A stretch of DNA of 64,000 nt from Bdellovibrionales bacterium (GCA_005793345.1 SXSU01000137.1:1-64000); one strand, 5' to 3'. Counted from the stretch's first letter, positions 7,762-54,190 are shown. Numbers and translations: made by a program. Notes: generated by a model from the letters alone, not told the origin.

Positions 7762-7903
7762 TTATGAAAACACAAACATAATTGTGGGTTTTCATAATAC
7801 GCGGTGATTGAATATAGCCCCCAACAAACAAGAAAATAACTGCTCGTGATTATGTCTGATATAATTGTGTAGCGATCAGACTTAATCATGAGCAGTTATT
7901 TTT
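7762..7903 (-). repeat. composite palindromic repeat B-C-A (copy 1)
   Basis: Three hairpin modules in a row: B (7762-7797, TTATGAAAAC...GTTTTCATAA), C (7800-7822, a degenerate GGGGTGATTGAAAATCGCCCC hairpin followed by AACAAACAAG) and A (7835-7900, a 66-bp palindrome with 26-bp arms). Module A ends 2 bp before the stop codon of the leftward tonB-like gene. Read in that gene's direction the order is A-C-B, as in the reference copy at 14550. Confidence 0.85.
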
Positions 7904-9002
7904 AATTTCTCTTAATATGAGCTCTTAACAAAGTTGGGGCCTCAACAGGGCCTCCTTTTAGATTCCATTCAAAAGGGACTTGTACCCATCCTTCTTGACC
8001 AGGATAAAATTTCCATTTTGCTAAGGCAGATTGAGATTTATAATCTAAAGATCTAAAACCCGAACTTGTTTTCATAGAAATTCGCGATACAGAGCCATTA
8101 GATTGAACAAAAGCATAAAATAATATAAAACCTTGCATACCTTTTACTCTTTCAGCAATGGAATATACTGGTTTTGGATTTCCTGGCATTTGTCTCAAAT
8201 CACTAAGGTTGCGAATTTTTGAACCTGCAACAAGTGCCTTTGGGTTTGAGTCTATTTTCGCTCCAGTATTGTAACTATTTTCTGAAGGATTATGAGTTTG
8301 CGAATTATTAGAGTAAGTACTTTTTAAATTTTTATTAATGGTATTTTTGCTAATTAAAGGCAGAGTTATTTTCTCTTTTGAGCGAGTTCCATTTGCATTT
8401 TTATACTCATTTGCAAGTTCTGAATCTGTAATTTTTAAATCGTGAGCAATTTGTCCTAATAGCTTTTTTTGTGATGATTTTTCATCATCAGACTCAATTT
8501 TTTGAAGGAATTCATCAAGATCTAAGGGTTGTTCTTGAGAATTATTTGAGGTAACCTTTGCTTGAGAATGTTCATTTTTTTCAAGTTCATCAGAATTTAG
8601 TTCGGGTGGAAGTGGGGTATTATCTGAGATATCCTCATCTTTAAATTCTAAATTAGCAAATTCTTCATTATTATCTTCAATGTTAGGGGGTATGCGCTGG
8701 TGTTTCTGATAAATATTTTCATCCTTAGTTTTTAATACTTTGTCTGTAATAGTTTTATTATTATTTAAGAGAGGCTTAGTTGGTAATGCGTTTAAATTTC
8801 CTAATGAATTATTTTGGGAAGAGATAATATTTGAGTTTTGAAGTTCAAACTCGATAGCGTTATCATTATTTTTTAAAGATCTTTGTGTGGTTTTTAAAAT
8901 AAAATTATTTAATAATAGAAATATAGACAAATGTATTGTAATTGAAAAAACAATATGTCTTGAGAAAAAATTATTAATAAAAGATGTTTTAGTGTAATAC
9001 AT
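7902..9002 (-). CDS. TonB-like protein (energy transducer or related)
   Basis: 366 residues: one N-terminal membrane segment (about 16-36), a long polar low-complexity periplasmic region rich in N, S, E and K, and a C-terminal TonB-type domain (about 270-350). The C-terminal domain contains VYSIAERVKGMQGFILFYAF, SNGSVSRISMKTSSGF, ALAKWKFYPG and VPFEWNL. In TonB systems this domain couples inner-membrane energy to outer-membrane receptors. The linker lacks the usual Pro-Lys repeats, so a TonB-paralogue role in another envelope machine is possible. No ExbB/ExbD genes are adjacent. Confidence 0.75.
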   Translation of the reverse strand: MYYTKTSFINNFFSRHIVFSITIHLSIFLLLNNFILKTTQRSLKNNDNAIEFELQNSNIISSQNNSLGNLNALPTKPLLNNNKTITDKVLKTKDENIYQKHQRIPPNIEDNNEEFANLEFKDEDISDNTPLPPELNSDELEKNEHSQAKVTSNNSQEQPLDLDEFLQKIESDDEKSSQKKLLGQIAHDLKITDSELANEYKNANGTRSKEKITLPLISKNTINKNLKSTYSNNSQTHNPSENSYNTGAKIDSNPKALVAGSKIRNLSDLRQMPGNPKPVYSIAERVKGMQGFILFYAFVQSNGSVSRISMKTSSGFRSLDYKSQSALAKWKFYPGQEGWVQVPFEWNLKGGPVEAPTLLRAHIKRN

Positions 9003-9537
9003 ATTAAGTATCTTTCTGAATCTAACTGAAGTTCAGAGTTATATAATATTAATTTATCAAAAAAAGATAAAATCTTTATTTGTCAAAGCTTCTAATTATT
9101 GCCTAATCTGTTCTTACAAGGCTTGCTAATACAATAATATAAGTTATTAATTGAGATTTAATATTACTTGAAGCGAAGCAGAGAGGACCTAATACGCAAT
9201 AAGTAACATTAAAATATCAGATTAAAACATAATATATGTCCTACGAAAATATATTTTTTAATTCTATCTTAGTGCTCTTGGATTAAAAAGTACTTGTGAA
9301 TTGTATTCAAGAAGTAAACAAAAAAAGTCATATACTACTTGAGAATTTATTTAAAAAAGTAAAAAATATATAATTAAAGTCTAAAACTAGGGTTCGTCCT
9401 AGATTTCGACTTTATAAAAAAAGCATAAGAGTTAGCAGCTAATTATGCAAAATATAAAATATAGTTGAGATATTACAACTAAAAAGAAACTAAATATAGA
9501 GAAGATTGATTTCCTAAATTGATTGAGGAGTAATTTT
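9003..9537. other. 535-bp intergenic region between divergent genes
   Basis: AT-rich, no convincing ORF. It must hold the promoters for the leftward TonB-like gene and the rightward BatE-like gene. The only clear structure is a long hairpin at 9375-9414. A ribosome site GAGGAG (9525-9530) belongs to the next gene. Confidence 0.5.
9375..9414. other. long imperfect hairpin in intergenic region
   Basis: TAAAGTC...GACTTTA forms the outer stem and CTAGG-GTTCGT-CCTAG the inner stem. With one T/C and one A/A mismatch the two are continuous (about 17 positions), capped by the 6-base loop GTTCGT. It lies about 120 bp upstream of the BatE-like gene. It could be a leader structure or a terminator of an upstream transcript; A-rich sequence follows it on the plus strand and there is no clear T-tract. 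Confidence 0.45.
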
Positions 9538-10314
9538 ATGAAATTTTATTCATTTCTGTTTTGCACAATAGTATTAATTACTGAATTTTGCTTTGGTTTA
9601 ACATTTGACGAAGGTGTTCTTGCTTATAATAATAAAAACTACATTGAAGCAAATTCAAAATTTGAAGAATTCTTAAAAAATGATCCCGATAATATAAATA
9701 CAATTTTTAATCTTGGAATAGTTAATATCCAAAATAATCAGTTAAGTAAATCGTTATATTATTTTAGACTACTGCAAGATAAATCTCCTAGAGAACCCGA
9801 TGTAGAAAGGGCAATTGAGTATATTGACAAAAAAATGGAGACAAAAAACTTTCAGAAGGAAACTACATTTCTTGAGGAAATAAATAATAAAGTTTTATAT
9901 TGGTTAACTGTACCTGAATTTTTAATAGTTCAATTGTTATTATCGCTTATTATTGGACTGTATATTGTTAGATTTGTTGCATATCGAATTAAAATTATTA
10001 GTATGGATGAAGATCCCCCCTTAATTTTGAAAAAGCATTGGGTGATGGTTTTTATTTTAATGGCAATTAATTTTTTCACTTTTATGAAACTTTTTATTGA
10101 TCAAAGAGAATTGGGGACCATAATTTATAATGGGAAGTTAATTTTAAAGTCTGGTCCCTCTATTTTGTCAGCAGATTTAAATGATATATATGATGGATTT
10201 GAAGTTAAAGTTTTACAATCATACAAAGGTTGGACCCAAGTTAGTTATCAAAATAATATAATAGGATGGGTAGAATCGAAATATCTCGCAATCCATAAGA
10301 ATAAATTTTTTTAA
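9538..10314 (+). CDS. BatE-like TPR and SH3-domain membrane protein
   Basis: 258 residues from the ATG at 9538, which has GAGGAG 7 bases upstream; a TTG start 15 bp earlier would overlap that site. Order of parts: signal segment, TPR-like helices (about 20-90, AYNNKNYIEANSKFEEFL), a membrane span (IVQLLLSLIIGLYIVRFVAY), a second span (WVMVFILMAINFF) and a C-terminal bacterial SH3 domain (about 190-250, ending GWVESKYLAIH). The same architecture is found in BatE of the Bat (aerotolerance) operons. No BatA-D or MoxR gene is next to it here, so its role is uncertain. Confidence 0.6.
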   Translation: MKFYSFLFCTIVLITEFCFGLTFDEGVLAYNNKNYIEANSKFEEFLKNDPDNINTIFNLGIVNIQNNQLSKSLYYFRLLQDKSPREPDVERAIEYIDKKMETKNFQKETTFLEEINNKVLYWLTVPEFLIVQLLLSLIIGLYIVRFVAYRIKIISMDEDPPLILKKHWVMVFILMAINFFTFMKLFIDQRELGTIIYNGKLILKSGPSILSADLNDIYDGFEVKVLQSYKGWTQVSYQNNIIGWVESKYLAIHKNKFF

Positions 10315-10349
10315 TTAATAAATTAAATTGGATGTTTGAGAATTTTTTA

Positions 10350-10488
10350 TTTTCTTGTTTGTTGGGGCGATTTTCAATCACCCCGTATTATGAAAAATAT
10401 AAACTTTAGTTTAGATTTTCATAATAACTGCTTATGGTTATGTCTGATATAATCGCGAAGCGATCAAACGTAATCTTGAGCAGTTTTT
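10350..10488 (+). repeat. composite palindromic repeat C-B-A (copy 2)
   Basis: TTTCTTGTTTGTT spacer, then C (10364-10384, GGGGCGATTTTCAATCACCCC), B (10388-10424) and A (10423-10488). It starts 36 bp after the stop of the BatE-like gene. Module A has the centre TATAATCGCGAAGCGATC, opposite in orientation to A in the reference copy, and its right arm has decayed. Confidence 0.85.
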
Positions 10489-10654: not shown

Positions 10655-10777
10655 CTATCATGAGCGGTCATATTATGGGGCGATTTAAAATAACGTCAAA
10701 TAAATATTTAATTAACTTGTAAATATTAAGGCTCATATAATCGCGAAGTATTCAGATTTACTAATTTGCAGTTAGTA
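10655..10777 (+). repeat. decayed fragments of the palindromic repeat family
   Basis: Pieces of the family can still be read: ATCATGAGCGGTCA followed by ATTATGGGGCGATTT (10658-10685), and GGCTCATATAATCGCGAAG followed by TTGCAGTTAG (about 10730-10775). They look like an older insertion of the same element in the gap before the cyclic-nucleotide-binding gene. The rest of 10489-10817 shows nothing else. Confidence 0.5.
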
Positions 10778-14032: not shown

Positions 14033-14551
14033 ATGTCTATTGATAAAAACTCAATAATTCCATTTATGAAAAAAGACGAAATAGATAGTATTGTGAAATC
14101 TTTAGCAAAGAAGATCGAGCAAGATTATTTTGGAAAAGAATTAATTTTAATTTGTCCGTTAAGAGGCTCTATTCATTTTTTAACAGATTTATCCAAATTA
14201 ATTAAATTAAATTTGAAAATAGATTTTGTTCATCTTGCCTCAACTGAGAAGTCAGGATCTATTAAAATTATCAAAGACATAAGCGAAAATATAACTGGGA
14301 AACATGTTATAATAGTGGAAGAAATTATTGATACTGGAAAAACATTAAATTTTTTAAAAAATAGATTATTGGTTTCAAATCCTGCTTCTTTAAAAATTGT
14401 AACCTTATTAGATAAACCATCACGACGTGAGATTTCTTTAAAACCCGACTATATTGGAAAGTCGATTGATGATAGGTATGTTATTGGTTATGGAATGGAT
14501 TCGGAAGACTTAGGCAGAAATTATAGCGAAATATTATTTTTTAAGAATTAA
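14033..14551 (+). CDS. hpt: hypoxanthine phosphoribosyltransferase
   Basis: 172 residues. Adds the ribose phosphate of PRPP to hypoxanthine or guanine in purine salvage. The PRPP loop is VIIVEEIIDTGKTL (93-106), preceded by CPLRGSIHFLTDL and followed by the purine-end motif YVIGYGMD. The ATG at 14033 has AAGGAG 6 bases upstream and is preferred over earlier in-frame codons that overlap the TPR gene. Its stop codon is the first base pairs of a palindromic repeat (14550). Confidence 0.87.
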   Translation: MSIDKNSIIPFMKKDEIDSIVKSLAKKIEQDYFGKELILICPLRGSIHFLTDLSKLIKLNLKIDFVHLASTEKSGSIKIIKDISENITGKHVIIVEEIIDTGKTLNFLKNRLLVSNPASLKIVTLLDKPSRREISLKPDYIGKSIDDRYVIGYGMDSEDLGRNYSEILFFKN

Positions 14552-14757
14552 TAACTACTCATGATTAAGTCTGATTGCTTCGCAATTGTATCAGACATAA
14601 TCACGAGCAGTTATTCTCTTGTTTGTTTGGGGCGATTTTCAATCACCCCGTATTATGAAAATCCAAACTAAAGTTTGTATTTTCATAATAACTACTCATG
14701 TACTCATGATTAAGTCTGATTGCTTCGCAATTGTATCAGACATAAATGAGTAATTAT
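14550..14757 (+). repeat. full composite palindromic repeat A-C-B-A (reference copy)
   Basis: The most complete copy: A1 14550-14615, C 14629-14649 (GGGGCGATTTTCAATCACCCC, preceded by CTTGTTTGTTT), B 14653-14688 (TTATGAAAATCC...ATTTTCATAA) and A2 14687-14757. A2 carries an 8-bp direct duplication (TACTCATG at 14693-14708). A1 begins within the hpt stop codon. In A1 the arms start AATAACTACTCATGATTAAG and the centre contains TTGCTTCGCAA. Confidence 0.9.
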
Positions 14758-20175: not shown

Positions 20176-20284
20176 AATACAGAGTGATTGAAAATCGCCC
20201 CCAACAAACAGGAAAATAACGGCGCATGATTTTGTCTCGCATATAATCGCGAAGCGATCAGATTTAATCATGAGCAGTTATTTT
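20176..20284 (-). repeat. composite palindromic repeat C-A (copy 5)
   Basis: C is reduced to AGAGTGATTGAAAATCGCCC (20181-20200), followed by CCAACAAACAGG, then A (20215-20282) with centre TATAATCGCGAAGCGATC. Module A ends 31 bp past the stop of the leftward murU-like gene, i.e. on its 3' side. The left arm has decayed slightly (AATAACGGCGCATGATT). Confidence 0.85.
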
Positions 20285-20314: not shown

Positions 20315-21382
20315 TTAGAGAACTAATGTTTCATTTAAATTTTTAGATATTTGCTGTGTTGTATTTACAACTGAATTTTTAATGTTTGAATTTTGAAAAA
20401 TTTCACTATTTTTATTTAATACCAGGAAGCCTTCTACTACGGCATCTTTGTGGAGAGTGCTTGATTCATGTTTGAAGATTATTTTTTCGGGCAATTGATT
20501 TATAAGAATAAAATTGCCAAATTTATTCTCTAATATAGCATCATTGGGAAAATATTTTAATGAATTTGTTTTCCAAAAATTGAAAAAATCTACAAGATAA
20601 TTATTTTTTGAAGTTAACAAGTTTAAAGCTTTGTATGTTGCGATGAGATAATCTTTAAGATTTCCTGTTTCTTCCCATGAACAATTGATGTTATATGCGA
20701 AGACAGGTTTATTTTTTTTAATTGCAAGGCTTAGAACATCATATAAAATATTTGAATCAGATTTTATTTCATTTGCTTCTGCTGTGAAATCAAAAATTTC
20801 ATTTGATAAAATTTGCGTTCCTAAAAAATGTAAAGGCCTTAATTTTGGTATTGAATTGTTTGAAGACGCTGGGTTGGTTTTTCCAAAACCATAAACTTTA
20901 TTTGTTTCATCAACCCATATTGCTCCAAATTTTTTACCTGCCTCAGGATGATCAGTTGTTAATAGGAGAGATAAAGGCTTTAATTTTGTAAAAAAATTTA
21001 AATATTTTTTAAACTCTAAAGTTGATTCTGGTATTATAATTTCATCACCATTGCAAATTATAAAATGTTTTTCATTTTTAAGGAGATGGCGGGCAAAGTG
21101 AAGCCCTCCACCACTATTGAGTGGGGATTGAAATTGTACTTCGTTGGATTCCTCAATGGTTTCAAATTTCGATTTTACTTCTTGATTTTCAAAATCTAAT
21201 TTCATTTTATCAGCGAGATGGTAAGTATTATAAACTAGATTTTTTGCTCCCATTGAATGAAGTTGAAAAAGAGAGTAATAAAACATAGGTAGGCCAAGAA
21301 ATGGAATTGAAGGCTTGGGTATTGTATTTGTATAGGGTTGAAAGCGAGTGCCTTGACCGGCGGCTAGTATTAGGGCCTTCAT
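20315..21382 (-). CDS. murU: nucleotidyltransferase, MurU-like (MurNAc-1-phosphate uridylyltransferase)
   Basis: 355 residues. Sugar-nucleotide pyrophosphorylase fold: KALILAAGQGTRF (2-14) then TIPKPSIPFLGLPM with the catalytic Lys, FIICNGDEIII as the metal-binding Asp segment, and EETGNLKDYL near the C-terminal side. In Pseudomonas, MurU makes UDP-MurNAc from MurNAc-1-phosphate made by AmgK. Here the upstream gene is an AmgK-like kinase with an ATGA overlap, which supports the specific name. It is longer than Pseudomonas MurU (about 225), with roughly 100 extra C-terminal residues, so the substrate could differ. Confidence 0.75.
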   Translation of the reverse strand: MKALILAAGQGTRFQPYTNTIPKPSIPFLGLPMFYYSLFQLHSMGAKNLVYNTYHLADKMKLDFENQEVKSKFETIEESNEVQFQSPLNSGGGLHFARHLLKNEKHFIICNGDEIIIPESTLEFKKYLNFFTKLKPLSLLLTTDHPEAGKKFGAIWVDETNKVYGFGKTNPASSNNSIPKLRPLHFLGTQILSNEIFDFTAEANEIKSDSNILYDVLSLAIKKNKPVFAYNINCSWEETGNLKDYLIATYKALNLLTSKNNYLVDFFNFWKTNSLKYFPNDAILENKFGNFILINQLPEKIIFKHESSTLHKDAVVEGFLVLNKNSEIFQNSNIKNSVVNTTQQISKNLNETLVL

Positions 21383-22431
21383 TTGAGAAACTCTTTTTCA
21401 AAGTCAATTTGAGTTAGTTTATAATGTTCAAATAAAGTTAAAATGTTTTTATATTCAGGAAAAAGTTGAAGTGAAGATTGGACGGTATTAAGAGTTTGGC
21501 TTAAATATTTCAAATAACGAGCGTCATTTTTTAAAACATAAAAGCTTGCAAAGCTTCCAGCTGCCTTTAAGCAGCGTTGAATAGTTTGCAGCTCATAGAT
21601 ATAAGAAAAGTGCTCATAAGAAGCATCAATTGGAGTTATTTTTTTGGCTTCATTAAAATATTCTGCTAATAATTTTTTCTCTAACAATTCAGGAAAGTTG
21701 ACATATGAATCTTTAAATAAAGAAACTAAGTCATACTGTATGGCGCCTAAGCGAGCATCCTGGAAATCTATTATTCGAGTCTCATCATTTTTTATCATTA
21801 TATTTCGAGAGTGAAAGTCACGATGCTGTATATATTGAGGCTGCTCGTGCAATCGTTCAGCAATATTCTTAAAAGAAACATCAACTTGGTATTTATCTAG
21901 TTCTTGATTGGAGATTTTTAACAGTCCTATAAGTAAGTTCTTTTTGGTGTGTTGTAGCTCCCAATTCAGTTTTTCGGTATCAAAGTTCAATGTAAATGCG
22001 ATGCAATCACCTTTTGCAATAGTTGAATAAAATTGTATTTTTAATAATTCCTCGAGGGTTTTTTCATAATACGGAATATATTTTTCTTGCTTTTCTGTAG
22101 ACCAAAATTCTGTTTCTAAGGAGTGGTCACCTAGATCTTCTAGAATGACTAAACCATGTTGGGAGTCAAAATCTAGAATTTCAGGAACTTTAATTTTATT
22201 TAATTTAAAATATTTTTGAACATTAAAAAATGGGAAGTTTATTGAATCAAAGGGTTCCCAAGCCATTAATACATAAGATTGCTTTTTTTCGCATGTAAAA
22301 AATCTAAAATATTTTCTACTTGAGGCATCTCCAGTTAGTGATTCAATTGTAAACTTTTGATTCCTCAGAAATGAACTTATAAAAGCTAATAATGTTGAAT
22401 TTTCTCTTGACCAAGTATTTTGTGAAATCAT
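21379..22431 (-). CDS. amgK: AmgK-like anomeric sugar kinase (aminoglycoside phosphotransferase fold)
   Basis: 350 residues. Kinase fold of the APH family: SLTGDASSRKYFRF (31-44) as the nucleotide-loop signature shared with AmgK, LVILEDLGDHSLE, catalytic loop HRDFHSRN (203-210) and metal-binding IIDFQDARLGA (220-230). AmgK phosphorylates free MurNAc/GlcNAc at C1 in cell-wall recycling. It overlaps the MurU-like gene by 4 bp (ATGA) and its start overlaps the cti stop (TAATG), so the three are coupled. A general sugar-kinase role cannot be ruled out. Confidence 0.8.
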   Translation of the reverse strand: MISQNTWSRENSTLLAFISSFLRNQKFTIESLTGDASSRKYFRFFTCEKKQSYVLMAWEPFDSINFPFFNVQKYFKLNKIKVPEILDFDSQHGLVILEDLGDHSLETEFWSTEKQEKYIPYYEKTLEELLKIQFYSTIAKGDCIAFTLNFDTEKLNWELQHTKKNLLIGLLKISNQELDKYQVDVSFKNIAERLHEQPQYIQHRDFHSRNIMIKNDETRIIDFQDARLGAIQYDLVSLFKDSYVNFPELLEKKLLAEYFNEAKKITPIDASYEHFSYIYELQTIQRCLKAAGSFASFYVLKNDARYLKYLSQTLNTVQSSLQLFPEYKNILTLFEHYKLTQIDFEKEFLK

Positions 22432-24668
22432 TAGTTTAGCTCCAGCTGATTTAGATCTATTGCTCCTGCTTCAAGAGGATCTGTATTTAAAATGAAAGTA
22501 TTAAACCAATCATATACTGACCAGAAATTAGAATTAAACCGAGTTATTGCATATCTTTTTTTTAGATTTATCCATTTGATTTCACCAGGAGTAGATGTAT
22601 CTAAAATAATTTTTAAAAACTCATCTTTTTGTTCGAAATTTAGTTTTAAAAATACTTCAGGTCTATCACCTATAATTCCTTTTAAAATTATTAATGAATC
22701 CAAATTTGGGTTTCTGCCGTAATCTTGAACAAGAGCTATATCATTAAACTTATAATATTTTGTTCTTAGTAAAGTATAGGCCTCATCTTCAAATTGGATG
22801 TAGGTAATATTTGGAAGATGCTTAGCTAATGACTTTCTTTCATCAATTAATGCTTTTTCAAATGCAAGCTCCCACTCATTATACTTATCAGAAGGGTTTT
22901 TTATAAAATCATAATGATTATTAGTAATTTCTGGTTTGAGGCTGTTGTTGAGTAAATTTAAAAAGTTAAGAATATATTGGTTTTCATACGGTGATTTAGT
23001 ATGCTCTTGAATTTTTATATTGCTCTCAAAAAAACTTTCTTCAAATTGATTGTATAAAGACTGTCGAATATTTTTGGGGAAGAGTAATAAAAACCGCTCT
23101 TCCGCTTCTTTTCGATGTTCGGTCATTGCATCAAAAGTTGAAAGTTGATGAAGCGCGCTACCCCAAGGTTTAAATTCTACAACAAGATTATAATAAATTC
23201 TTTCAAAATTAGAATAATTTAAAAACCAAATTGTGTTGGGTTGCCCTCCAATAAAGCCTTTATGTACTGAAGCACTTTCTTCATGGCGAAAAATTGTAAG
23301 TAAAGCATTTTGTCTGTAGCCATCTCCATCCCAAATTGAATTTATATCATAATTAACGTCACTTGTAAGTGCAGATTTAGTTAAAACATTTATTGGATTT
23401 TTAATTTTAACCAGCGATTTCCATTCGCGTTTTAACTCAGGATCATCTAAAGTTTTATCGGCTTCAGGTTTTAAAAATAAAACCCAAAAATGATCTCGAA
23501 TAGCACTTGTTGCATTTAATCCAACACATACGGGTCCTTTTATCATTGAGTTAACTATCATATATGAGTTTTCAAGTAAAAACTTGTATCGATATTTTGT
23601 AGGAATATCTTTAAAGCGATCAAAAGGGTTATCTGAAAGTATGGGTAACTCTTGGTTAAGAATTTTTTTGGGTTTTGAAACTGACCATTGAGCATCTTCA
23701 ATTATATTTATCCAATTTATTTTATCCGCTTCACTAACTTCCCAGGGAATATGAGTTTTTTTAACTATGGATTCAGTCACTTTTTTCAGTCTATAAAAAT
23801 AAATTTTATCTTTAACTGGATCACTTGGACGTTCGGTTACAATTTCATCAACAGGAAATGGAGCCACTGTTCGGGAGCGCACGAGTTCAAAGAACTCATC
23901 ATTTGGAGTAGAATCGAAGTGAATATGAGCTAAGAAAGAGTGCTCATAAATGTATTTTATAAAAAGTTGAGCTTTTGGATTAGAATTATTGAGAAAATTT
24001 TCCCATTTACGGATGAGTTGTGGATTTGAGGGTAGGTTTAAGTTTGAAATAATTCTTGGGCTAGGGCCAACCGAACCATCTTGCGCCCAAGTTTTTATAA
24101 TATCAAGTTCATAATTTGAAAGTGGAGGTAATCCATATGGCATTCCAATATGAAAATTACCCTCACATGTCTTGGGTTCATTAAATTTTTTTAATGGCAA
24201 ACTTAAATTTTCAAAACCTGAGTCTAAGCGCTGTTTTGCAAATTGATAAATTAGGTTATGAGCCAAATATTCTTCACCTTTTAAATTATGGACAACGGGC
24301 TTGAAGCCCCTATCCCGCCATTCTGCAACTGTAGTTACGTCCTTAAGGCGAAAAGGTGTAGTTCCCAGTAATAAATCTGGAGGAAGTCTGGAGCCTCTTC
24401 GCATCCCTTCATAGGAAGTTAAATAAAGTGAGCAAGGCGCCTCTCCACACGCATGACAAGCGATACATCGTTTGTTAAAAATAGGCTGTACTTTTGAAGT
24501 GTAATAATCTTCATCGAGTGAACTTGTTAATTGTCCATCAAGTAATTCATAGAGTTGTGGTTTGCTAGAATCTAAAAAAGAATTTTTAGATTCAATGTGC
24601 GAACAACTTATAAAAAAAGTTATGAGTAATCCAAAAATTAAAAAAATAATTACAGTTTTTTTTCTCAT
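22431..24668 (-). CDS. cti: fatty acid cis/trans isomerase, lipoprotein form
   Basis: 745 residues. Cti converts cis-unsaturated membrane fatty acids to trans to stiffen membranes under solvent or heat stress; it is a periplasmic c-type haem protein. Here a lipobox (ISC-SH, Cys22) precedes the haem site CIACH (68-72) in VQPIFNKRCIACHACGEAPC. The family segment YEGMRRGSRLPPD follows, as in Cti. Length is close to the family's 750-770. It is the first gene of a tightly overlapping operon with amgK and murU, an unusual pairing of lipid remodelling with peptidoglycan recycling. Confidence 0.88.
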   Translation of the reverse strand: MRKKTVIIFLIFGLLITFFISCSHIESKNSFLDSSKPQLYELLDGQLTSSLDEDYYTSKVQPIFNKRCIACHACGEAPCSLYLTSYEGMRRGSRLPPDLLLGTTPFRLKDVTTVAEWRDRGFKPVVHNLKGEEYLAHNLIYQFAKQRLDSGFENLSLPLKKFNEPKTCEGNFHIGMPYGLPPLSNYELDIIKTWAQDGSVGPSPRIISNLNLPSNPQLIRKWENFLNNSNPKAQLFIKYIYEHSFLAHIHFDSTPNDEFFELVRSRTVAPFPVDEIVTERPSDPVKDKIYFYRLKKVTESIVKKTHIPWEVSEADKINWINIIEDAQWSVSKPKKILNQELPILSDNPFDRFKDIPTKYRYKFLLENSYMIVNSMIKGPVCVGLNATSAIRDHFWVLFLKPEADKTLDDPELKREWKSLVKIKNPINVLTKSALTSDVNYDINSIWDGDGYRQNALLTIFRHEESASVHKGFIGGQPNTIWFLNYSNFERIYYNLVVEFKPWGSALHQLSTFDAMTEHRKEAEERFLLLFPKNIRQSLYNQFEESFFESNIKIQEHTKSPYENQYILNFLNLLNNSLKPEITNNHYDFIKNPSDKYNEWELAFEKALIDERKSLAKHLPNITYIQFEDEAYTLLRTKYYKFNDIALVQDYGRNPNLDSLIILKGIIGDRPEVFLKLNFEQKDEFLKIILDTSTPGEIKWINLKKRYAITRFNSNFWSVYDWFNTFILNTDPLEAGAIDLNQLELN

Positions 24669-25465: not shown

Positions 25466-25551
25466 ATTACACCTAATCCTAGTTAATGTATTTATTGATC
25501 AGCAATGTCAAAATCATTTTGACAAATCCCTTTGATCAATTTTAATTAAAC

Positions 25552-25614
25552 AACTGCTTATGATTATATCTGGAAAGATTACTTTCAACTCTGACTTAAT
25601 CATGAGCAGTTATT
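25552..25614 (-). repeat. palindromic repeat module A (copy 6, divergent centre)
   Basis: Arms AACTGCTTATGATTA and TAATCATGAGCAGTTATT are kept, but the centre is replaced by TCTGGAAAGATTACTTTCAACTCTGAC-like sequence with its own GAAAG/CTTTC hairpin. It lies 3' of the sigma-54 activator gene that ends at 25831 and 5' of the 252-residue unknown gene. Confidence 0.75.
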
Positions 25615-27518: not shown

Positions 27519-30428
27519 TTAGTAGTTTAGAAGAAATTTACCTGTTAAACTATCTTGGCATTTAATGATTTCATTGGGTGGACCTGCAAATACAATTTGT
27601 CCACCGCCAGAGCCGCCATCAGGACCAAGATCAATAATATGATCTGCTCCTGAGATTACATCCATATTGTGTTCAACAACAATTACACTACTACCAGCAT
27701 CAATAAGTTTATGCAGAATTCTCATTAACATATTAACTTCTCGAAAATGTAATCCTGTTGTGGGTTCATCTAAGATGTAGAGAGTTGATTTTTGTTGAAT
27801 TTGGCTGAGTTCCTTTGCAATTTTTAAACGCTGAGATTCTCCCCCACTAAGTGTGCCGGAAGATTGACCTAAGCGTAAATAATCTAAGCCTACTTCTTTT
27901 AAGAACGTTAGTGATTTTCTAATTTGTGGCTGATTTACAAAAAAATGTATGGCTTCATCAACAGTTAAGTTTAGAACCTCTAAAATATTTTTACCTTGAA
28001 AGGTAACTTCTAAAACATCTTCGATAAATTTTTTACCATCGCAGCTTTCACAAGGGAGATAAACATTATCCATAAACATCATTTCAACTTCTTCTACTCC
28101 AAGCCCCTTACATACAGGGCAACGTCCACCATCTACATTTAAGCTAAAGTGTCCAGGTGTAATATTGTTAAATTTTGCTCTCTCTGTATTAGCAAAAATA
28201 TTTCGAATGTAGTCATATATTTTTAAATAAGTAAGGCAATTACTCCTAATAGAGCGTCCAATTGGCGATTGATCTAATAGGACAACATTTTTAATGTATT
28301 CATGGCCCACTAAGGATGTAAACTCTTGAGTGGGTAAATATTCGATATCAAGTGCTCGCGCGAGGGCAGGGTAAAGAGTTTTTGTAACAAGTGTAGACTT
28401 TCCAGATCCACTAACACCGCTGACAACTACAAGACGATTTAGAGGAAAAGCAATATCAAGATTTTTTAAGTTGTGCCCCTTAGCTCCGTTCAAAGTTATT
28501 TTATATTTGTAATTATTAAGATCAACGGGGCGATCACTTCTTGCCGCCTTTAATTCAGATTTAGTTCTGTTAAAATACGGAACTGTGACGGAAGTTTTTG
28601 ATTTCCAAAAATCTGAGGTTGCTCCAGAGTAAATGACCTCACCACCCAAGTGGCCAGAGCCTGGCCCCATTTCTATAATGTGTGTACTGTTTTTTATGAC
28701 ATCATGATCGTGCTCAACGATGACAACAGTATTTCCATGTTCATTGAGATCTTTTAAAATAGAAATAAGTCTTTCATTATCTCGAGGATGTAGTCCAACG
28801 GTGGGTTCATCAAGAATGTAAAGAGTTTCCGATAGTGCCATTCCTAGTTGATGTGCTAAAAGTAATCTTTGATATTCTCCGCCAGAGAGTGTTCTGGTTT
28901 CGCGATCGAGAGTTAAATAATTGACTCCTACTTTCATTAAAAATTTTAGACGGGCTTTGAGTTGTAAAAAAATTTCTTCGGCAATTTCAAGTTCATTTTT
29001 TTTTAATTCAACGGTATTTATAAAATTAAACAACTGCTCAACTGTCATTTTGCAGAGATCAACAATTGATTGATTTCTAAAATAAATGGAACGAACCTCT
29101 TTTCGCAATCGACTTCCCTTGCAGTCGGGGCATTGAAATGGACTTCGATAACGTGCAATGAAGACTCGGACATGCATTTTATATTTAATCTCTTCGAGCA
29201 TTGCAAAAAGACCTTCAACACCCATGAAATCTTTAGAACCCTTCCAGATGATTTGTCTATGTTCTAGAGGTAATTCATCCCAAGGTAATTCAAGATCAAT
29301 ATTATTTTTACGACAGAATTTTATTAATTGTTTTTTGTCTTCGCTCGCACTTGGCATGGTAAAAGGCTGTAGTGCACCTTGAGCTAAACTAAGTTTAGGA
29401 TTTGGTATTACTTTTTTTTCATCAAGAGTTAAAATATTTCCAAATCCTTTGCAGGTTGGGCAAGCTCCATAGGGAGAGTTAAAACTAAAAAGTTTAGTAG
29501 TTTTATTTAGGGGGGTGTAACCGCAAATAGAGCAACATTCATCTTCACTAACTCGAAGTTGCTCACCGTCTACCGTTAAAATTAAAGCTCTTTTTGATTT
29601 TAAGTGATTATTTAATTTTAAGCTTGCTTCATAAGCTTGAGATAATGAATCAGAAAGACGTCCTTTTTCTTCTTCTTGAAATTGTAGTCTGTCAATTACG
29701 ACATAAAATAAATCTTTTGGAAGTCCTTGTTTAACGGCTTGTGGGTTGTTAATTTCGATAACTTCGCCTTCAAGTTTTTGTGCCAGCCCAGTCCCAAATG
29801 AATTAGTATTAGTTTCTATTTCAAGGTTGTTTGCTTTTTTCTTAGATTTTGATTTTGATTTTGAGTTTACCTTTAAAGCTTTAGTGGGAACAAATATTCG
29901 TAGATATGATTCTTGGACTAATAGTTCGTGGAGTTTTTTGTCATGAGCAACTCTACCTGTAGGATCTACTTCAACTAATAAATATCCTCTTTGATCCTTA
30001 AAATTCTTAAGAATTTTTACAGTGGCATCTGTTACAGTTTCACGTTCAGTTGGGTTATTATGTGTGGGACAGTAGGAGATTCCAATTTTTTCATAGAGTA
30101 ATCTTAAATAATCAATAATTTCAGTTGTTGTACCAACAGTTGACCTACTGTTTTTCACGGAATTTTTTTGTTCCAGGGCAATTGTGGGTGGAATATTTTT
30201 TATACCTTCGATATCAGGTTTAGGTGCTGTATTTAAAAACTGACGAGCATAATGAGAAAGGCTTTCTATAAATCTTCGTTGGCCCTCAGCAAAAAGAGTT
30301 TGAAATGCAAGAGAACTTTTACCTGAACCACTCGGTCCGCATACTACTGTGAATGATCCTAATGGAATTTCCACATCAATATTTTTTAAATTATTTTGTT
30401 TTACACCCCAAAGGCTTATATTATTCAT
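27519..30428 (-). CDS. uvrA: excinuclease ABC subunit A
   Basis: 969 residues. UvrA dimers find DNA lesions and load UvrB in nucleotide-excision repair. Both ABC modules are present: Walker A GPSGSGKSSLAFQT (about 31-44) and GVSGSGKSTLV, signatures LSGGEYQRL and LSGGESQRLKIA. Zinc ligands are CSIC...CPTC and CPVC...CESC. A Lys/Ser-rich stretch (VNSKSKSKSKKKANN, about 197-211) looks like a lineage-specific insertion in a loop. It starts 27 bp after PBP1A on the same strand, with GGAGA ahead of the ATG. Confidence 0.95.
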   Translation of the reverse strand: MNNISLWGVKQNNLKNIDVEIPLGSFTVVCGPSGSGKSSLAFQTLFAEGQRRFIESLSHYARQFLNTAPKPDIEGIKNIPPTIALEQKNSVKNSRSTVGTTTEIIDYLRLLYEKIGISYCPTHNNPTERETVTDATVKILKNFKDQRGYLLVEVDPTGRVAHDKKLHELLVQESYLRIFVPTKALKVNSKSKSKSKKKANNLEIETNTNSFGTGLAQKLEGEVIEINNPQAVKQGLPKDLFYVVIDRLQFQEEEKGRLSDSLSQAYEASLKLNNHLKSKRALILTVDGEQLRVSEDECCSICGYTPLNKTTKLFSFNSPYGACPTCKGFGNILTLDEKKVIPNPKLSLAQGALQPFTMPSASEDKKQLIKFCRKNNIDLELPWDELPLEHRQIIWKGSKDFMGVEGLFAMLEEIKYKMHVRVFIARYRSPFQCPDCKGSRLRKEVRSIYFRNQSIVDLCKMTVEQLFNFINTVELKKNELEIAEEIFLQLKARLKFLMKVGVNYLTLDRETRTLSGGEYQRLLLAHQLGMALSETLYILDEPTVGLHPRDNERLISILKDLNEHGNTVVIVEHDHDVIKNSTHIIEMGPGSGHLGGEVIYSGATSDFWKSKTSVTVPYFNRTKSELKAARSDRPVDLNNYKYKITLNGAKGHNLKNLDIAFPLNRLVVVSGVSGSGKSTLVTKTLYPALARALDIEYLPTQEFTSLVGHEYIKNVVLLDQSPIGRSIRSNCLTYLKIYDYIRNIFANTERAKFNNITPGHFSLNVDGGRCPVCKGLGVEEVEMMFMDNVYLPCESCDGKKFIEDVLEVTFQGKNILEVLNLTVDEAIHFFVNQPQIRKSLTFLKEVGLDYLRLGQSSGTLSGGESQRLKIAKELSQIQQKSTLYILDEPTTGLHFREVNMLMRILHKLIDAGSSVIVVEHNMDVISGADHIIDLGPDGGSGGGQIVFAGPPNEIIKCQDSLTGKFLLNY

Positions 30429-38430: not shown

Positions 38431-38473
38431 ATAATGAGCCTTTGAATTTATGGTATTTTTAGATTATCACAAA

Positions 38474-38511
38474 CTTACCGGCAAATGCAACAAGATAGAT
38501 TTGCCGGTAAG
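38474..38511. promoter_or_regulatory. palindrome 1 upstream of the ATPase_2 gene
   Basis: CTTACCGGCAAAT and ATTTGCCGGTAAG are perfect 13-bp arms around a 12-base centre (GCAACAAGATAG). The unit recurs at 38528 with a 54-bp period. It is likely a protein-binding site in the ATPase promoter region or the end of a mobile unit. Confidence 0.7.
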
Positions 38512-38527
38512 AAAAAAATATTTCAAA

Positions 38528-38565
38528 CTTACCGGCAAATGCAACTACATAGATTTGTCGGTAAG
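38528..38565. promoter_or_regulatory. palindrome 2 upstream of the ATPase_2 gene
   Basis: Second copy of the CTTACCGGCAAAT palindrome, right arm with one change (ATTTGTCGGTAAG), centre GCAACTACATAG. It shares the left flank AAA with palindrome 1 and part of the centre, so the two form a direct repeat of inverted repeats. Confidence 0.7.
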
Positions 38566-38743
38566 ATATTATTGTGAAAAATTCAGAGCGATTGAAGATG
38601 GTCTGGGGTCTGTGCTTCATAAAGTAATACCAAAAAATCTTAAAATAGACTTGTAAAAATACATAAATGAAGTTATTATTAAAGATAGCCTGTTTGTTAG
38701 GAGTAAATTATACGGATAACTATAATGGAATTAAGGAGAGATT

Positions 38744-39154: not shown

Positions 39155-39616
39155 ATGGCAATTTGGTATAGAGTACATCATGATAAAAATGAGAAAAATG
39201 TTTTTTCAGGAGACGGTGGGCTATATGTTGCGGGTCGATGGAGTTTCAAAGGAACTAAAGCAATTTATTGCTCCCAGTCCATTGCGCTAGCTACCTTGGA
39301 ATGGCTTTGTCATAATGGACTTTCGGTATCGGAGTTTGATTATTTTAGATATTCAATTGAAGTTCCAGAAAATTTAATTATTAAACCTTCAAAGTTAAAA
39401 TTACCAAAAGAATGGAATTTTACTCCAGCTACCGACGAAGCTAGAATTTTTGCGACAAAAGAGTTTATCAGTGTTGGTAAGTTCTTGGGGATGATTGTTC
39501 CTTCGGTTATGGTGCCTGAAGAGAATAATCTGATAATAAATCCTTTGCATCCGAAGTTTAATAACATTGCTTCTAGTATTAAAAGATTAGGTTTCTTTAA
39601 AGCTCCTACTAGATAA
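39155..39616 (+). CDS. RES-domain toxin (NAD+-depleting)
   Basis: 153 residues, typical RES length. Conserved RES residues are visible: R6 (WYRVHH), R28 (GRWSFKGTKAIYCS), Y38, E49 (ATLEWL) and S117 (MIVPSVMV). Known RES toxins hydrolyse or phosphorolyse NAD+ and halt growth until neutralised by the Xre partner just upstream. All key positions are kept, so it is probably functional. A decayed palindromic repeat follows immediately after its stop. Confidence 0.9.
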   Translation: MAIWYRVHHDKNEKNVFSGDGGLYVAGRWSFKGTKAIYCSQSIALATLEWLCHNGLSVSEFDYFRYSIEVPENLIIKPSKLKLPKEWNFTPATDEARIFATKEFISVGKFLGMIVPSVMVPEENNLIINPLHPKFNNIASSIKRLGFFKAPTR

Positions 39617-39618: not shown

Positions 39619-39670
39619 AAATAGCTGCTCATGATTAAGTCTGATCGTTAACGCAATTTTATATTTTATG
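39619..39670 (+). repeat. palindromic repeat module A, half copy (copy 7)
   Basis: AAATAGCTGCTCATGATTAA followed by GTCTGATCG gives the left arm in the same orientation as the reference copy, directly behind the RES toxin gene. The right arm has decayed into AT-rich sequence (GCAATTTTATATTTTATGAC). Confidence 0.7.
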
Positions 39671-47521: not shown

Positions 47522-47560
47522 ATTTTGTTTTTAGCGCAGTGAATTTTTTTAAGAACAAGG

Positions 47561-47688
47561 AATAACTCAATAAAATTATTGAGGCCTACCTCTGCAATAA
47601 GCCGCAGATAATTTTTTGAGTTATGACGATGGAATTATAAAAATTAACAAGCTAAAACAAATATTAATTATCAAATTCGTGTTTTAAG
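47561..47688 (-). repeat. 130-bp degenerate repeat, copy 2
   Basis: Aligns with 3145-3274. The head is self-complementary: AACTCAATAAAATTATTGAG against GATAATTTTTTGAGTT. The tail AAGCTAAAACAAATATT runs into the 3' end of the recombinase gene; the last codons (TRI and stop, 47671-47682) are encoded by the repeat. On its other side it is 40 bp from the stop of the cytochrome gene. Confidence 0.6.
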
Positions 47689-48576
47689 GGGATGATATTT
47701 ATTTATAGTATTTGAAAGTTGATCCAAGGTTAAGTGGGTATATTTTTCTGTTGCTTGAAGAGTTGAGTGACCGAGGAGTTCTTGTAGAGCTCGAAGATCT
47801 GCCCCACTTTGTAATAAATGCGTTGCATAGCTATGTCTAAGAGCGTGAGGGTGTAAAGGCTTTAATAGCCCAGCAAGAGCACCTTGTTTACGTACCATAG
47901 AATAAGCAACTCTCTGGTTAAGTGGCTTATCTCCCCATATATAATTTTTTTGCGATATTTTTGAGTTTAATACTAATTTTAGTTTATTTAAAATTTCAAA
48001 ACATAATTTAGGTAAAATTATAACTCTTTCTTTATTACCTTTTCCAAGAACTAGGAGCTTTCTTTGCTGAAAATCAAGATCGCTCCATTTTATATGACAG
48101 GCCTCTGATATTCGAAGTCCACCTCCATATAATAAACATATTAGTACATTTGTTGTTAAATTATGAGTGGAGCTTTGGATTAAAAATATTGCTTCGTCCA
48201 CTGAAATAAAATGTGGAATTTTTTGTGGAACTTTAGGAGATTTTATTTTTTCAAAAAGCGGTGAAATTAGATAATTTTTTCTGTAAAGCCATTTAAAAAA
48301 AGCTTTAATAGTAGCAGATTTGCGATTACGTGATGCAATACTTAGAGATCCCCAACTTAATTGGGCTTGTTTAGCTTTGAAAAGTAAAAACTCTTCAATG
48401 TTTTTAAATGTTGTAAGTTCTTTTTTATTCTTTACTTCAACTTGATAAAAAACTTGTTCTAGATCTTTACTATAACTTTTCAAAGTTAAGGGGCTTTTTT
48501 GATCAATAGTTTCAATTTCATAAAAATATTTTTTTTTCCAATCAGTTATTAAGCTTAAATATTCTTTGTTGATCAT
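47671..48576 (-). CDS. xerC: tyrosine recombinase, XerC/XerD-type
   Basis: 301 residues, the usual Xer length. N-terminal SAM-like core-binding domain, then a catalytic domain with all active residues: R154 (GGGLRISEA), K179 (LGKGNKERV), H244 and R247 (HPHALRHSYATHLLQSGAD), H270 (ELLGHSTLQ) and the nucleophile Y279 (EKYTHL). Xer enzymes resolve chromosome dimers at dif. Whether this is XerC, XerD or an integrase-like paralogue cannot be decided here; no dif-like site was found in the window. Confidence 0.88.
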   Translation of the reverse strand: MINKEYLSLITDWKKKYFYEIETIDQKSPLTLKSYSKDLEQVFYQVEVKNKKELTTFKNIEEFLLFKAKQAQLSWGSLSIASRNRKSATIKAFFKWLYRKNYLISPLFEKIKSPKVPQKIPHFISVDEAIFLIQSSTHNLTTNVLICLLYGGGLRISEACHIKWSDLDFQQRKLLVLGKGNKERVIILPKLCFEILNKLKLVLNSKISQKNYIWGDKPLNQRVAYSMVRKQGALAGLLKPLHPHALRHSYATHLLQSGADLRALQELLGHSTLQATEKYTHLTLDQLSNTINKYHPLKTRI

Positions 48577-48626
48577 AATTAAATCTTATAAGAACTGAAC
48601 TTACATTGATTGCGAAATTTGAGTTA

Positions 48627-48661
48627 TTATGAAAATACAAACTTTAGTTTGGATTTTAATA
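48627..48661. repeat. solitary B module of the palindromic repeat family
   Basis: TTATGAAAATACAAACTTTA then GTTTGGATTTTAATA; the same hairpin as in composite copies at 7762, 10388 and 14653, here without A or C. It lies about 50 bp before the start of the leftward recombinase gene and so is one of the few pieces not behind a 3' end. Confidence 0.75.
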
Positions 48662-50051: not shown

Positions 50052-50118
50052 AATTACTGCTTGTGATTAAGACTGATCGCTGGCGCGAATGTATCAGGCA
50101 TAATCATAAGCAGTTTTT
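50052..50118 (+). repeat. palindromic repeat module A (copy 8) overlapping the lgt 3' end
   Basis: AATTACTGCTTGTGATTAAG, centre containing CGCTGGCGCGAATG, and right arm TAATCATAAGCAGTTT. It lies behind two convergent genes. Its right arm is read as the end of lgt on the minus strand: the codons for KTAYDYA and the TGA stop (50094-50096) come from the repeat. Confidence 0.85.
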
Positions 50119-50948
50119 TTATGTTTTACTATTAAAATTAAATTGGATATACTAATTAAAATTAATAAAATGCTTATAACAGATGAAATTGATGTCCCCA
50201 AAACTAACGAACCTCTAAAATCACCTCGAAAGTATTCAAGAAATAATCTTGCTAATCCGTGCATAGTTAACCAAGAAAAAAATATTACTCCAGACAATTT
50301 AAATTTTGATCTTATAGAAGAAGTTATAGTTAAATTTACTTTTGAATTTAAAGCTATATGATTATCAAATTTATTTTTTTCAAATTTAAATAAGATGGCC
50401 ACAATAATTAATTCAAATAGAGAAGCATAAAGCTGTGTTGGGTGTCTACTGATGCCATCATTTAAAGCGTGATTGATCATTGACCATGGAATTATACTAG
50501 TATTAACAGGTTTTCCATAGCAGCATCCCGCAAGGAAGCAACCCAGTCGGCCAACAGAATATCCAAGAGCTATTAGGGGTGAAAAAAAATCAGCCCATTT
50601 AAGGAAAGTATCCTTTTTAAATTTTAAAAATATTATAGAGCTAAAAACTGCGAATATAAGTCCACCATAAAATACAAAACCACCGTGGAAAATATTAAAA
50701 ATTTGTAATGGGTTAGATAAATAAATTTGCGGATACTCAAATAAAATATGACCTAAACGTCCCCCAATTAAACCAGAAATTAATATTATAAGGGATAAAT
50801 CTAATCCCGTTTTTAAATTAAGATATGCAAATCTTTCGGAACCTAATCTTTTATTTGAAATTAATAAAATTAAAATGCAATCCAAACTTATTATTAGCAA
50901 ATAAGTTGGGATTGCAAAAAGTTCTGAAATTTTTAAAATAGGATACAT
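50094..50948 (-). CDS. lgt: prolipoprotein diacylglyceryl transferase
   Basis: 284 residues with about seven membrane spans. Lgt moves diacylglycerol onto the lipobox Cys of prolipoproteins in the inner membrane, which fits the many lipoproteins here. Motifs: GGRLGHILFEYP, NIFHGGFVFYGGLIFA with the essential His, GRLGCFLAGCCYGKP with the essential Arg, and RHPTQLYASLFE. The C terminus is unusual: its last residues (KTAYDYA) are encoded by an inserted palindromic repeat. It lies 4 bp downstream of a PfkB-kinase gene. Confidence 0.92.
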   Translation of the reverse strand: MYPILKISELFAIPTYLLIISLDCILILLISNKRLGSERFAYLNLKTGLDLSLIILISGLIGGRLGHILFEYPQIYLSNPLQIFNIFHGGFVFYGGLIFAVFSSIIFLKFKKDTFLKWADFFSPLIALGYSVGRLGCFLAGCCYGKPVNTSIIPWSMINHALNDGISRHPTQLYASLFELIIVAILFKFEKNKFDNHIALNSKVNLTITSSIRSKFKLSGVIFFSWLTMHGLARLFLEYFRGDFRGSLVLGTSISSVISILLILISISNLILIVKHKKTAYDYA

Positions 50949-51928: not shown

Positions 51929-52231
51929 TTAAAATGGTTTTGATCCATATAGAGTGAGAGCTCCAATGGATTGAGTAAAGTGTGAATGTTTTGTATTTGC
52001 AGCAATATCAATACGATCACCAGCTCTAAGCATAAGTTGAGTACCCCCAACATTAAAAACCAACTCACCATCTACTACAATTCTAACTTCACCAAATGGA
52101 TGCCTGTGTTCTTGAATTTTAAAACTTGGCTCAATTTTTTCTTCTTTGAACTCGATACCTTCAGCTTGGAGGATAAGCTTTAATTGTTCTAAGGTAGGTA
52201 GAGTTGCTGCTTGCCAACGTTGTATTAACAT
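51929..52231 (-). CDS. small cupin-domain protein
   Basis: 100 residues, a single cupin barrel. Metal-ligand motif 1 is EHRHPFGEVRIVVDGEL (two His and Glu), motif 2 is GDRIDIAANTKHSHF. Small cupins of this type often bind a metal and act as sugar isomerases or sensors; the substrate is unknown. It lies 61 bp upstream of the PfkB gene on the same strand. Confidence 0.85.
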   Translation of the reverse strand: MLIQRWQAATLPTLEQLKLILQAEGIEFKEEKIEPSFKIQEHRHPFGEVRIVVDGELVFNVGGTQLMLRAGDRIDIAANTKHSHFTQSIGALTLYGSKPF

Positions 52232-52250
52232 ATCAAGTTTATCCTTAAAG

Positions 52251-52270
52251 AGTTTGTATTTTCATAATAA
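52251..52270. repeat. half B module of the palindromic repeat family
   Basis: AGTTTGTATTTTCATAATAA equals the right arm of module B (compare 14671-14690). It lies between the divergent cupin and methyltransferase genes. The left arm is absent, so this is a remnant. Confidence 0.55.
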
Positions 52271-52323
52271 GTTATATTAGTTCAATTGCAGGAGCGTAAT
52301 GTCAATAGAGAGGAGCCTGCGTT

Positions 52324-52965: not shown

Positions 52966-52975
52966 AAAATATAAT

Positions 52976-53254
52976 ATGGTAAAAAAAATTAATGTAAGTC
53001 ATATTTTATTAACATATGAATATGAAGCAAAAGATATATTGCGTGCACTCAAAGAAGGTAAAAGTTTTGAAGATCTTGCGCAGAAGTATTCAAAATGCTC
53101 CTCTGCAGAGAACGGAGGCAACCTGGGTGATGTGCCATTGTCGAGATTAGACTCTGACTTTGCAGAAGCAGCAATGGCTCTTGCAAAAGACTCTGTTACA
53201 AAAGTTCCAATCCGAACCAAATTTGGATATCATATTATAAAACGAAATAAATGA
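52976..53254 (+). CDS. ppiC: parvulin-type peptidyl-prolyl isomerase
   Basis: 92 residues, a single parvulin domain without signal peptide. Motifs: VSHILLTYEYEAKDIL, FEDLAQKYSKCSSAENGGNL then GDVPLSRLDSDFAEAAMAL and RTKFGYHIIKRN. It catalyses cis-trans rotation of prolyl bonds in the cytoplasm, like E. coli PpiC. It is complete and close to the length of that enzyme (93). It is 10 bp behind the methyltransferase gene. Confidence 0.93.
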   Translation: MVKKINVSHILLTYEYEAKDILRALKEGKSFEDLAQKYSKCSSAENGGNLGDVPLSRLDSDFAEAAMALAKDSVTKVPIRTKFGYHIIKRNK

Positions 53255-53267
53255 TTCATTTATTTTA

Positions 53268-53969
53268 TTATAAAACTCTGGATATAAATTTTTGAACCAA
53301 TGGCGCAACTTGTAGTAGGGCTTTTGTTTCACTTACTAGTTTGGCTCTATTCATAAGTTCATAATTATTATAATCCGTATTATCTTTGGTAATTTCTGCA
53401 GTCTCAGTAACAACTGAAGTAAAAGGAACTACGTTTGTTCTTGTATCTAATAATAAGACCTCAAGGGATGTTATCCCTTTTGCTTTTTCACTATCAAACC
53501 ACTGAAATTTCCAATCCCCATAGGATGCGGGTTTGATAATGAGTAGTGCATCAGCTTGTAGTAGCACAGCAGCCTGACGTAAACTTGTTAACGTTATGGG
53601 TTTTGCGATCATTACTTGAGGCATAGGTATAATTGATTGTACCTTTTCTCCCCAATTGGATTTGTCATAAAGTTTTTCTGATACTTCTTGGCTGATAGTT
53701 TGATAATCTATTCCTTCGTAGGAATCAGATAGCTTCACAATTGCAATATTAATTTTTTTAGGAAAGGTAATTTTACTTGAAAGAATTTTTTGAACAGCAT
53801 CTTCTGAGAGTGGTTCATTTGCATTTAGAAGTGATTGAGTTAAATTAGGTTTCTTTTGATATTCTTGTGAAGACATATATTCATAATCTTTAGATTTCTG
53901 AGATGAGGCACACCCGATTAATGATAAAATGGAAATTAAGAAAATTGATTTGATAAAATTAGTGATCAT
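53268..53969 (-). CDS. predicted lipoprotein, unknown function
   Basis: 233 residues. Signal peptide FLISILSLIGCASS with a canonical lipobox (IGC). The mature part is soluble, with strand-helix segments such as KINIAIVKLSDSYEGIDYQT, ALLIIKPASYGDWKFQWFD and SLEVLLLDTRTNVVPFTS. No transmembrane segment follows. It converges on the parvulin gene (14 bp apart). No family is recognised. Confidence 0.75.
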   Translation of the reverse strand: MITNFIKSIFLISILSLIGCASSQKSKDYEYMSSQEYQKKPNLTQSLLNANEPLSEDAVQKILSSKITFPKKINIAIVKLSDSYEGIDYQTISQEVSEKLYDKSNWGEKVQSIIPMPQVMIAKPITLTSLRQAAVLLQADALLIIKPASYGDWKFQWFDSEKAKGITSLEVLLLDTRTNVVPFTSVVTETAEITKDNTDYNNYELMNRAKLVSETKALLQVAPLVQKFISRVL

Positions 53970-54114
53970 TTAAACTCCAAAATTTTTAAATTAATTTTCC
54001 AGAAATAATTTGTTAAACTATTACTAATGTCAACTTTAAAAAATTATAGTAAAAGCATTTGATCTAGTTTGAATATGGGCAAGAAATGTAATATCAAAAT
54101 TTCACTCACCCCAA

Positions 54115-54190
54115 ACAAACAAAAAATAACTGCTCGTGATTATGTCTGATATAATCGCGAAGCGATCAGGCTTAATCATGAGCAGTTATT
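54115..54190 (-). repeat. palindromic repeat module A with C remnant (copy 9)
   Basis: CCCCAAACAAACAAAA is the remnant of C plus spacer (from about 54109), then A at 54125-54190, 66 bp with near-perfect 26-bp arms and centre ATAATCGCGAAGCG. It ends 19 bp past the stop of the leftward SEDS-like gene, on its 3' side, in the same orientation relative to that gene as copies 1 and 5. Confidence 0.9.

Follow-up and report, generated by a model that had tools for sequence, protein, structure and literature searches.

Why should copies of a single palindrome lie, time and again, just behind stop codons? The question is raised by a 64,000-nucleotide stretch of DNA from a Bdellovibrionales bacterium (GCA_005793345.1, SXSU01000137.1:1-64000; the whole stretch is hereafter the window), in which a sequence-only reading had picked out at least nine copies of a 66-bp palindrome, here called A, along with two further hairpins, C and B, and had proposed an element of REP (repetitive extragenic palindromic) or MITE (miniature inverted-repeat transposable element) type, selected for or targeted to the 3' ends of genes. 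Here we argue that A is the leading part of what is probably a non-autonomous, hairpin-based mobile element that is present in several hundred copies and has AATAA as its target, and that the pattern at stop codons mainly reflects this target combined with tolerance.

The window belongs to a metagenome-assembled genome of an uncultured Bdellovibrionales bacterium (3.96 Mb, 31% GC, 83% complete, 5% contaminated). Its UvrA (27519-30428) is at most 65% identical to UvrA of Bdellovibrio, Pseudobdellovibrio and other Bdellovibrionaceae, and we therefore assign the window to an uncultured member of the Bdellovibrionaceae group, related to the predatory Bdellovibrio. A profile search of 1.39 Mb of this genome (34 contigs) returned 181 copies of A, at about 13 per 100 kb; 179 of these exceed the score used, and the copies form 134 clusters. 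Some contigs were picked for carrying A matches, so that the extrapolated figure of 400-500 copies per genome is a rough one. A separate whole-genome search found at least 107 A matches from 40 of 397 candidate places scored. The repeat is thus not peculiar to the window. Beyond this genome, it was found neither in 140 other genomes of the order (none of them from its own genus), nor, by pattern matching, in 84,980 species genomes, nor in viral contigs, phages or plasmids; as judged from these searches, it is specific to one Bdellovibrionales lineage. Near-identical copies occur in unrelated flanks and in both orientations and share the same sharp edges, which, together with lineage restriction, indicates mobility, albeit indirectly.

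Read head first, the unit consists of AATAACTGCTCATGATTAAGTCTGATCGCTTCGCGATTATATCAGACATAATCACGAGCAGTTATT (A), TTCTTGTTTGTT (linker), GGGGCGATTTTCAATCACCCC (C), GTAT, TTATGAAAATCCAAACTAAAGTTTGTATTTTCAT (B) and AATAA. A further AATAA precedes the CTGCTC that opens A, A closes with GAGCAGTTATT, and TTTTCAT stands between B and the final AATAA. The C hairpin is GGGG..CCCC and the arms of B are TTATGAAAA and TTTTCATAA. A shorter form of the unit, A-linker-C, lacks B. Tandem units share one AATAA and repeat every 137 bp (full form) or ~102 bp (A-linker-C form), and clusters with several copies run head to tail (40 of 41 are same-strand). The fixed order in which C and B had been thought to accompany A is therefore the rule genome-wide, and one or both stand beside many copies, although it does not hold for one window copy (10362-10487) in which A and its C-B face opposite ways.

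The regularity of these arrays invites the suggestion that recombination and local duplication, and not transposition, spread the copies. Tandem arrays do have regular periods (137 and ~102 bp) and near-identical neighbours, and no transposase has been found. Yet the copies lie in 134 separate clusters whose flanks are unrelated, whose edges are identically sharp and whose orientations go both ways, and we regard this explanation as most improbable.

Folding bears out the modular anatomy. A 140-nt unit forms three hairpins at -56.8 kcal/mol, against a shuffle mean of -21.8 (z = -10.9). RNAalifold returned only a weak consensus on the copy alignment and we therefore tested the hairpins by pair counting. 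Across 49 divergent copies, 17 of the 37 pairs in A and C are doubly changed with pairing kept, compared to 6.0 when shuffled and 7-11 when the partner is slid, bearing in mind that related copies are counted here as independent, which they are not. At one apical pair, for example, a switch between C-G and U-A divides the copies 24 to 20. Such compensatory changes support both the A and the C hairpin. In a common subfamily of A (e.g. 20215-20282) a normal CTGCTC head is combined with the tail arm GCGCCGTTATT, and several stem pairs are broken. No Rfam family matched the window above its gathering score. The relatives differ from this genome in base composition, which confounds a comparison of hairpin density with them.

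The edges of the element are marked by one pentamer. AATAA is exact at 89 of 129 A heads, which there read AATAAC, and further upstream we find only AT-richness without conservation; tails read GTTATTTTC. At solo right ends, the letters A, A, T, A and A after TTTTCAT are conserved at 82-89% each, with conservation decaying beyond. The outer ends, AATAACTGCTC and TTTTCATAATAA, do not form an inverted-repeat pair.

How, then, are copies placed with respect to genes? A simple codon-based model predicts 1178 genes in the 1.39 Mb sample (86% coding), and none of the 134 clusters falls inside one. For the 129 clusters that have both neighbour genes, the head side is a gene 3' end in 71 and the tail side in 51, whereas 33 clusters lie between divergent gene starts. 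That nearly all A copies sit directly behind a stop codon, as the sequence-only reading had it, is hence too strong. The copies are not random with respect to gene ends, however, and the excess and fixed orientation noticed in the window extend across the genome: 28 of 129 heads (21.7%) lie at -4 to +1 of a stop, where 7.5% would be expected from noncoding AATAA sites without elements (p = 3e-7). At exactly -4, where the stop of the gene is the TAA of AATAA, we find 18 clusters (14% versus 5.4% expected, p = 2e-4). By simple arithmetic on these numbers, a head is carried by ~12% of the AATAA sites at stops, by 4.5% of the remaining noncoding ones and by roughly 0.04% of those in coding sequence.

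One might suspect that the element truncates genes and supplies them with a new stop. Whichever frame is read, the A head contains a stop, so that blind insertion into gene ends would use the three frames about equally; yet the TAA of AATAA serves 18 genes, and the other two frames only 6. Moreover, 10 of the 18 proteins with -4 stops were scanned, and in several of them a C-terminal domain reaches close to the C terminus (PYNP_C, residue 428 of 447; DHDPS, 281 of 292; peptidase M4_C, 639 of 642; a transporter domain, 332 of 335), so that these proteins are not truncated. Both observations fit insertion at an existing AATAA whose TAA is the natural stop.

A simple scenario would account for this pattern. 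We infer that the element is mobile, that AATAA is a pre-existing target, and that a transposase would act on the element in trans. The element would insert at, or re-create, AATAA in one orientation. Insertion at a gene ending in AATAA would keep the TAA stop and put the A head against the gene. Since the head must face the gene, the target would fix the orientation and an orientation bias would arise without selection. Noncoding sites would tolerate copies, while insertions inside genes would almost never be seen. The stop-codon pattern would then come mainly from target and tolerance, and any terminator effect would be a by-product. One can imagine a bolder version, namely that a transposase of a type not yet described guides insertion specifically to stop codons, keeping the TAA and delivering a ready-made terminator hairpin that, canonical terminators being few in this genome, serves as one of the main signals for transcript ends; this we consider very improbable.

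Several results weigh against the scenario of a mobile element with an AATAA target. When joined flanks were searched against the sampled sequence, no clean empty-site junction emerged, so that AATAA could belong to the element itself and not be its target. An about three-fold excess at stops is left over once the AATAA expectation has been taken into account. Replication-strand bias by GC skew is absent (71 of 131 on the G-rich strand, p = 0.38), unlike what would be expected of a lagging-strand single-stranded DNA element. Finally, A, B or C ends accompany none of the five Y1_Tnp matches in this 83%-complete genome.

Might the leftover excess be the work of selection? The sequence-only reading had raised the possibility that the repeat acts as a terminator or mRNA stabiliser, in which case A would be a dispersed intrinsic terminator or 3'-end stabiliser whose copies at stops are kept by selection. 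The anatomy is certainly appropriate: A is a long hairpin with a mean fold energy of -24 kcal/mol and is followed, when read head to tail, by the U-rich linker UUAUUUUCUUGUUUGUU, with a U fraction of 0.70 in the 17 nt past the stem as opposed to 0.47 the opposite way. A and the linker thus have the layout of an intrinsic terminator, a stable hairpin and then a U-rich tract. In close cases, the head faces the stop. Canonical terminators also look scarce in this genome according to two crude detectors, one of which reports them at 7% of gene ends and the other finds 5, compared to 6.8 in shuffled sequence. If copies at stops were kept by selection, however, we would expect them to be better preserved than copies elsewhere, and they are not, be it in score (p = 0.32), hairpin energy (p = 0.23) or U content (p = 0.32). 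Nor does the excess at -4 to +1 build up with age: taking profile score as no more than a proxy for age, it comprises 8, 11 and 9 of 43 in the youngest, middle and oldest third, respectively, and is therefore already present in young copies. In addition, 33 of 129 clusters have a gene start on either side, and the AATAA target is by itself enough to give the orientation. On balance, a terminator or stabiliser role kept by selection is unlikely. Given equal preservation and an excess in all age thirds, the leftover excess at stops seems to date from insertion or to come from immediate tolerance. Of the original alternatives, selected for or targeted to 3' ends, conservation lends no support to the former, while an AATAA target explains orientation and part of the excess. 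Given terminator-like anatomy and the scarcity of canonical terminators, an effect of the element on transcription is nevertheless possible, even if unselected.

A transposase with matching ends, for example a REP-associated tyrosine transposase (RAYT), for which the sequence-only reading had suggested looking, did not turn up in the 83% of the genome that is available. The Y1_Tnp genes we examined comprise two IS200-like genes, one multicopy RAYT-like gene and one decayed fragment, and none has ends matching A, B or C. The RAYT-like Y1 gene codes for 196 aa, occurs at least four times (contig C104, 30933-31520; C78, 9847-10287; C55, 2-289; C76, 8973-9131), is found as well at the starts of contigs C84 and C104, and has TTTTCATAAGGAATTGC at its right end; contigs are broken at its copies. 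As the source of the element, the copies on C104, C78, C55 and C76 were rejected, since A, C and B flank none of them. The 1.39 Mb sample was also searched for an autonomous parent, in which A-C would form one end and B the other, but it yielded lone B copies only.

These data bear on two more specific accounts of how the copies may have moved. According to the first, A, C and B form a true REP family, or a BIME-type one (bacterial interspersed mosaic element), that was moved by the RAYT of this genome, with the multicopy RAYT-like gene as its source. The number of RAYT-like copies and a faint resemblance between TTTTCATAAGGAATTGC and the B end TTTTCATAATAA speak for such a link; that no RAYT-like copy is bounded by A, C or B, that A lacks a GTAG or CGTC tag, and that arrays run head to tail in 40 of 41 cases make it quite unlikely. 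The second account is in fact a more specific form of the mobile-element reading: a multiplying derivative of an IS200/IS605-type single-stranded DNA element that is cleaved at AATAA on its left and carries, in A and B, the hairpins recognised by a Y1 transposase that has been lost or went unsampled. IS608 and ISDra2, both members of IS200/IS605, have a fixed short motif at the left flank, a similar motif at the right end and subterminal hairpins. The element described here also has a pentamer fixed at the left flank and repeated at the right end, lacks terminal inverted repeats, carries hairpins at its ends and forms head-to-tail arrays. Neither a cognate transposase nor a strand bias (71 of 131) was found, however, and in this specific form the idea is rather improbable.

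Irrespective of how they moved, the copies share a good deal with REPs, BIMEs and REPINs, which are likewise high-copy (>100), imperfectly palindromic, nearly all extragenic, lineage-specific, organized in modular clusters and often located near gene 3' ends (PMC3733652, PMC2817692). REPs are palindromes of 20-40 bp that bear a GTAG or CGTC tag and flank RAYT genes, and BIMEs alternate in orientation (PMC2817692, PMC3733652). Here, by contrast, the palindrome measures 66 bp and the full unit ~137 bp, there is no unpaired GTAG or CGTC tag, the AATAA edge provides TAA stops, no RAYT in the 83%-complete genome is bounded by A, C or B, and the spacing, although regular (137 or 102 bp), is head to tail rather than alternating. 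What survives of the REP/MITE label is hence a high-copy, mobile-looking palindromic family, and we do not file the element as REP or BIME, the defining features of which it lacks. That repeat termini provide stop codons is in itself a known feature, as GTAG REP termini often supply a TAG stop (PMC3733652); the same REP survey does not mention Bdellovibrio.

Other families offer partial parallels. BOX elements of Streptococcus pneumoniae are composite (boxA, boxB, boxC), have a folded RNA and vary in their middle module (PMC3049150), whereas the layout here is one of three separate hairpins, A-C-B, with the optional module, B, at the end. The pneumococcal SPRITE, which resembles a Rho-independent terminator, also places a long U-rich tract after a long stem (PMC3049150) but has a single 18-bp hairpin, without two more hairpins and AATAA bounds. 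MITEs of the ERIC/RU-1, YPAL/RU-2, RUP and Correia type are similarly non-autonomous, ~100-170 bp long, strongly folded as RNA and found near genes (PMC2229807); most end in terminal inverted repeats and duplicate a TA or variable target, in contrast to the non-inverted ends and AATAA edge seen here. DDE-type MITEs differ in having terminal inverted repeats, which our element lacks; the AATAA at both of its edges could be either a target duplication or the element's own end. In motif-bearing edges and end hairpins it resembles IS200/IS605-derived elements, from which it departs in that neither a cognate transposase nor a strand bias was found.

Within the window, all nine A copies of the sequence-only reading are recovered by the profile (E from 1e-20 to 3e-6), with boundaries shifted by a few bases, and in about four to five of the nine the head lies within ~20 nt of a stop. 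A full A on the minus strand (7835-7900; profile match 7835-7899) has its head 2 nt from the stop of a TonB-C gene (7902-9002, minus strand) and is accompanied by its linker, a degenerate C and B (7762-7834, minus strand). In the rearranged copy, a linker remnant, C and B whose own A is missing (10362-10425, plus strand) adjoin an inverted A (10423-10488, minus strand; profile match 10423-10487). A tenth, degenerate A, absent from the original list, follows at 10711-10774 (minus strand; profile match 10725-10774, E 2e-6). The head of the plus-strand A at 14550-14615 (profile match 14551-14615) overlaps the stop (TAATAAC) of a phosphoribosyltransferase gene ending at 14551; it is succeeded by linker, C and B (14616-14690, plus strand) and by the second, partial A of this tandem array (14691-14756, plus strand), originally listed at 14687 and matched by the profile at 14703-14756.

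The representative of the GCGCCGTTATT tail-arm subfamily (20215-20282, minus strand) lies with its head 33 nt from the stop of a gene at 20315-21382 and has a linker and C but no B (20180-20214, minus strand). A solo A matched by the profile at 25549-25613 (minus strand) has neither linker nor C. The head half of an A (39620-39661, plus strand; profile match 39621-39661) is situated 4 nt behind the stop of an RES-domain gene (39155-39616), and a lone B with AATAA at its end occupies 48624-48661 (minus strand). At 50052-50118 (plus strand; profile match 50053-50118), the tail of A overlaps the last 24 nt of the gene for Lgt, prolipoprotein diacylglyceryl transferase (50094-50948, minus strand), so that the element encodes the C-terminal end of the protein. 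The last A (54125-54190, minus strand) has its head 19 nt from the stop of an FtsW/RodA-family gene (54209-55348) and a linker and C remnant beside it (54103-54124, minus strand).

The same DNA holds other repeats. One of them, dispersed, ~125 bp long and without relation to A, occurs in the window at 3144-3268 and 47560-47683 and on contigs C129 (111200-111323) and C73 (97833-97957); in one instance it extends into the 3' end of a gene for a tyrosine recombinase (47671-48576), and a motif similar to it is found beside an IS30-like/RAYT-like gene pair in L033. Two adjacent copies of a 48-bp hairpin, CTTACCGGCAAATGC..GATTTGCCGGTAAG, lie between divergent genes at 38465-38566. The gene at 22431-24668 codes for a fatty acid cis/trans isomerase (CTI, E 2e-134, in two matched stretches).

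If our interpretation is correct, a target that contains a stop codon would offer a simple and countable route by which mobile hairpins come to lie at gene ends in one orientation. Insertion bias would thereby become separable from selection, a distinction usually left open for REP-like repeats. The findings add a high-copy family with three hairpins to the Bdellovibrionales and, should RNA data reveal termination at these sites, several hundred natural insertions would be at hand to test how mobile DNA rewires transcript ends.

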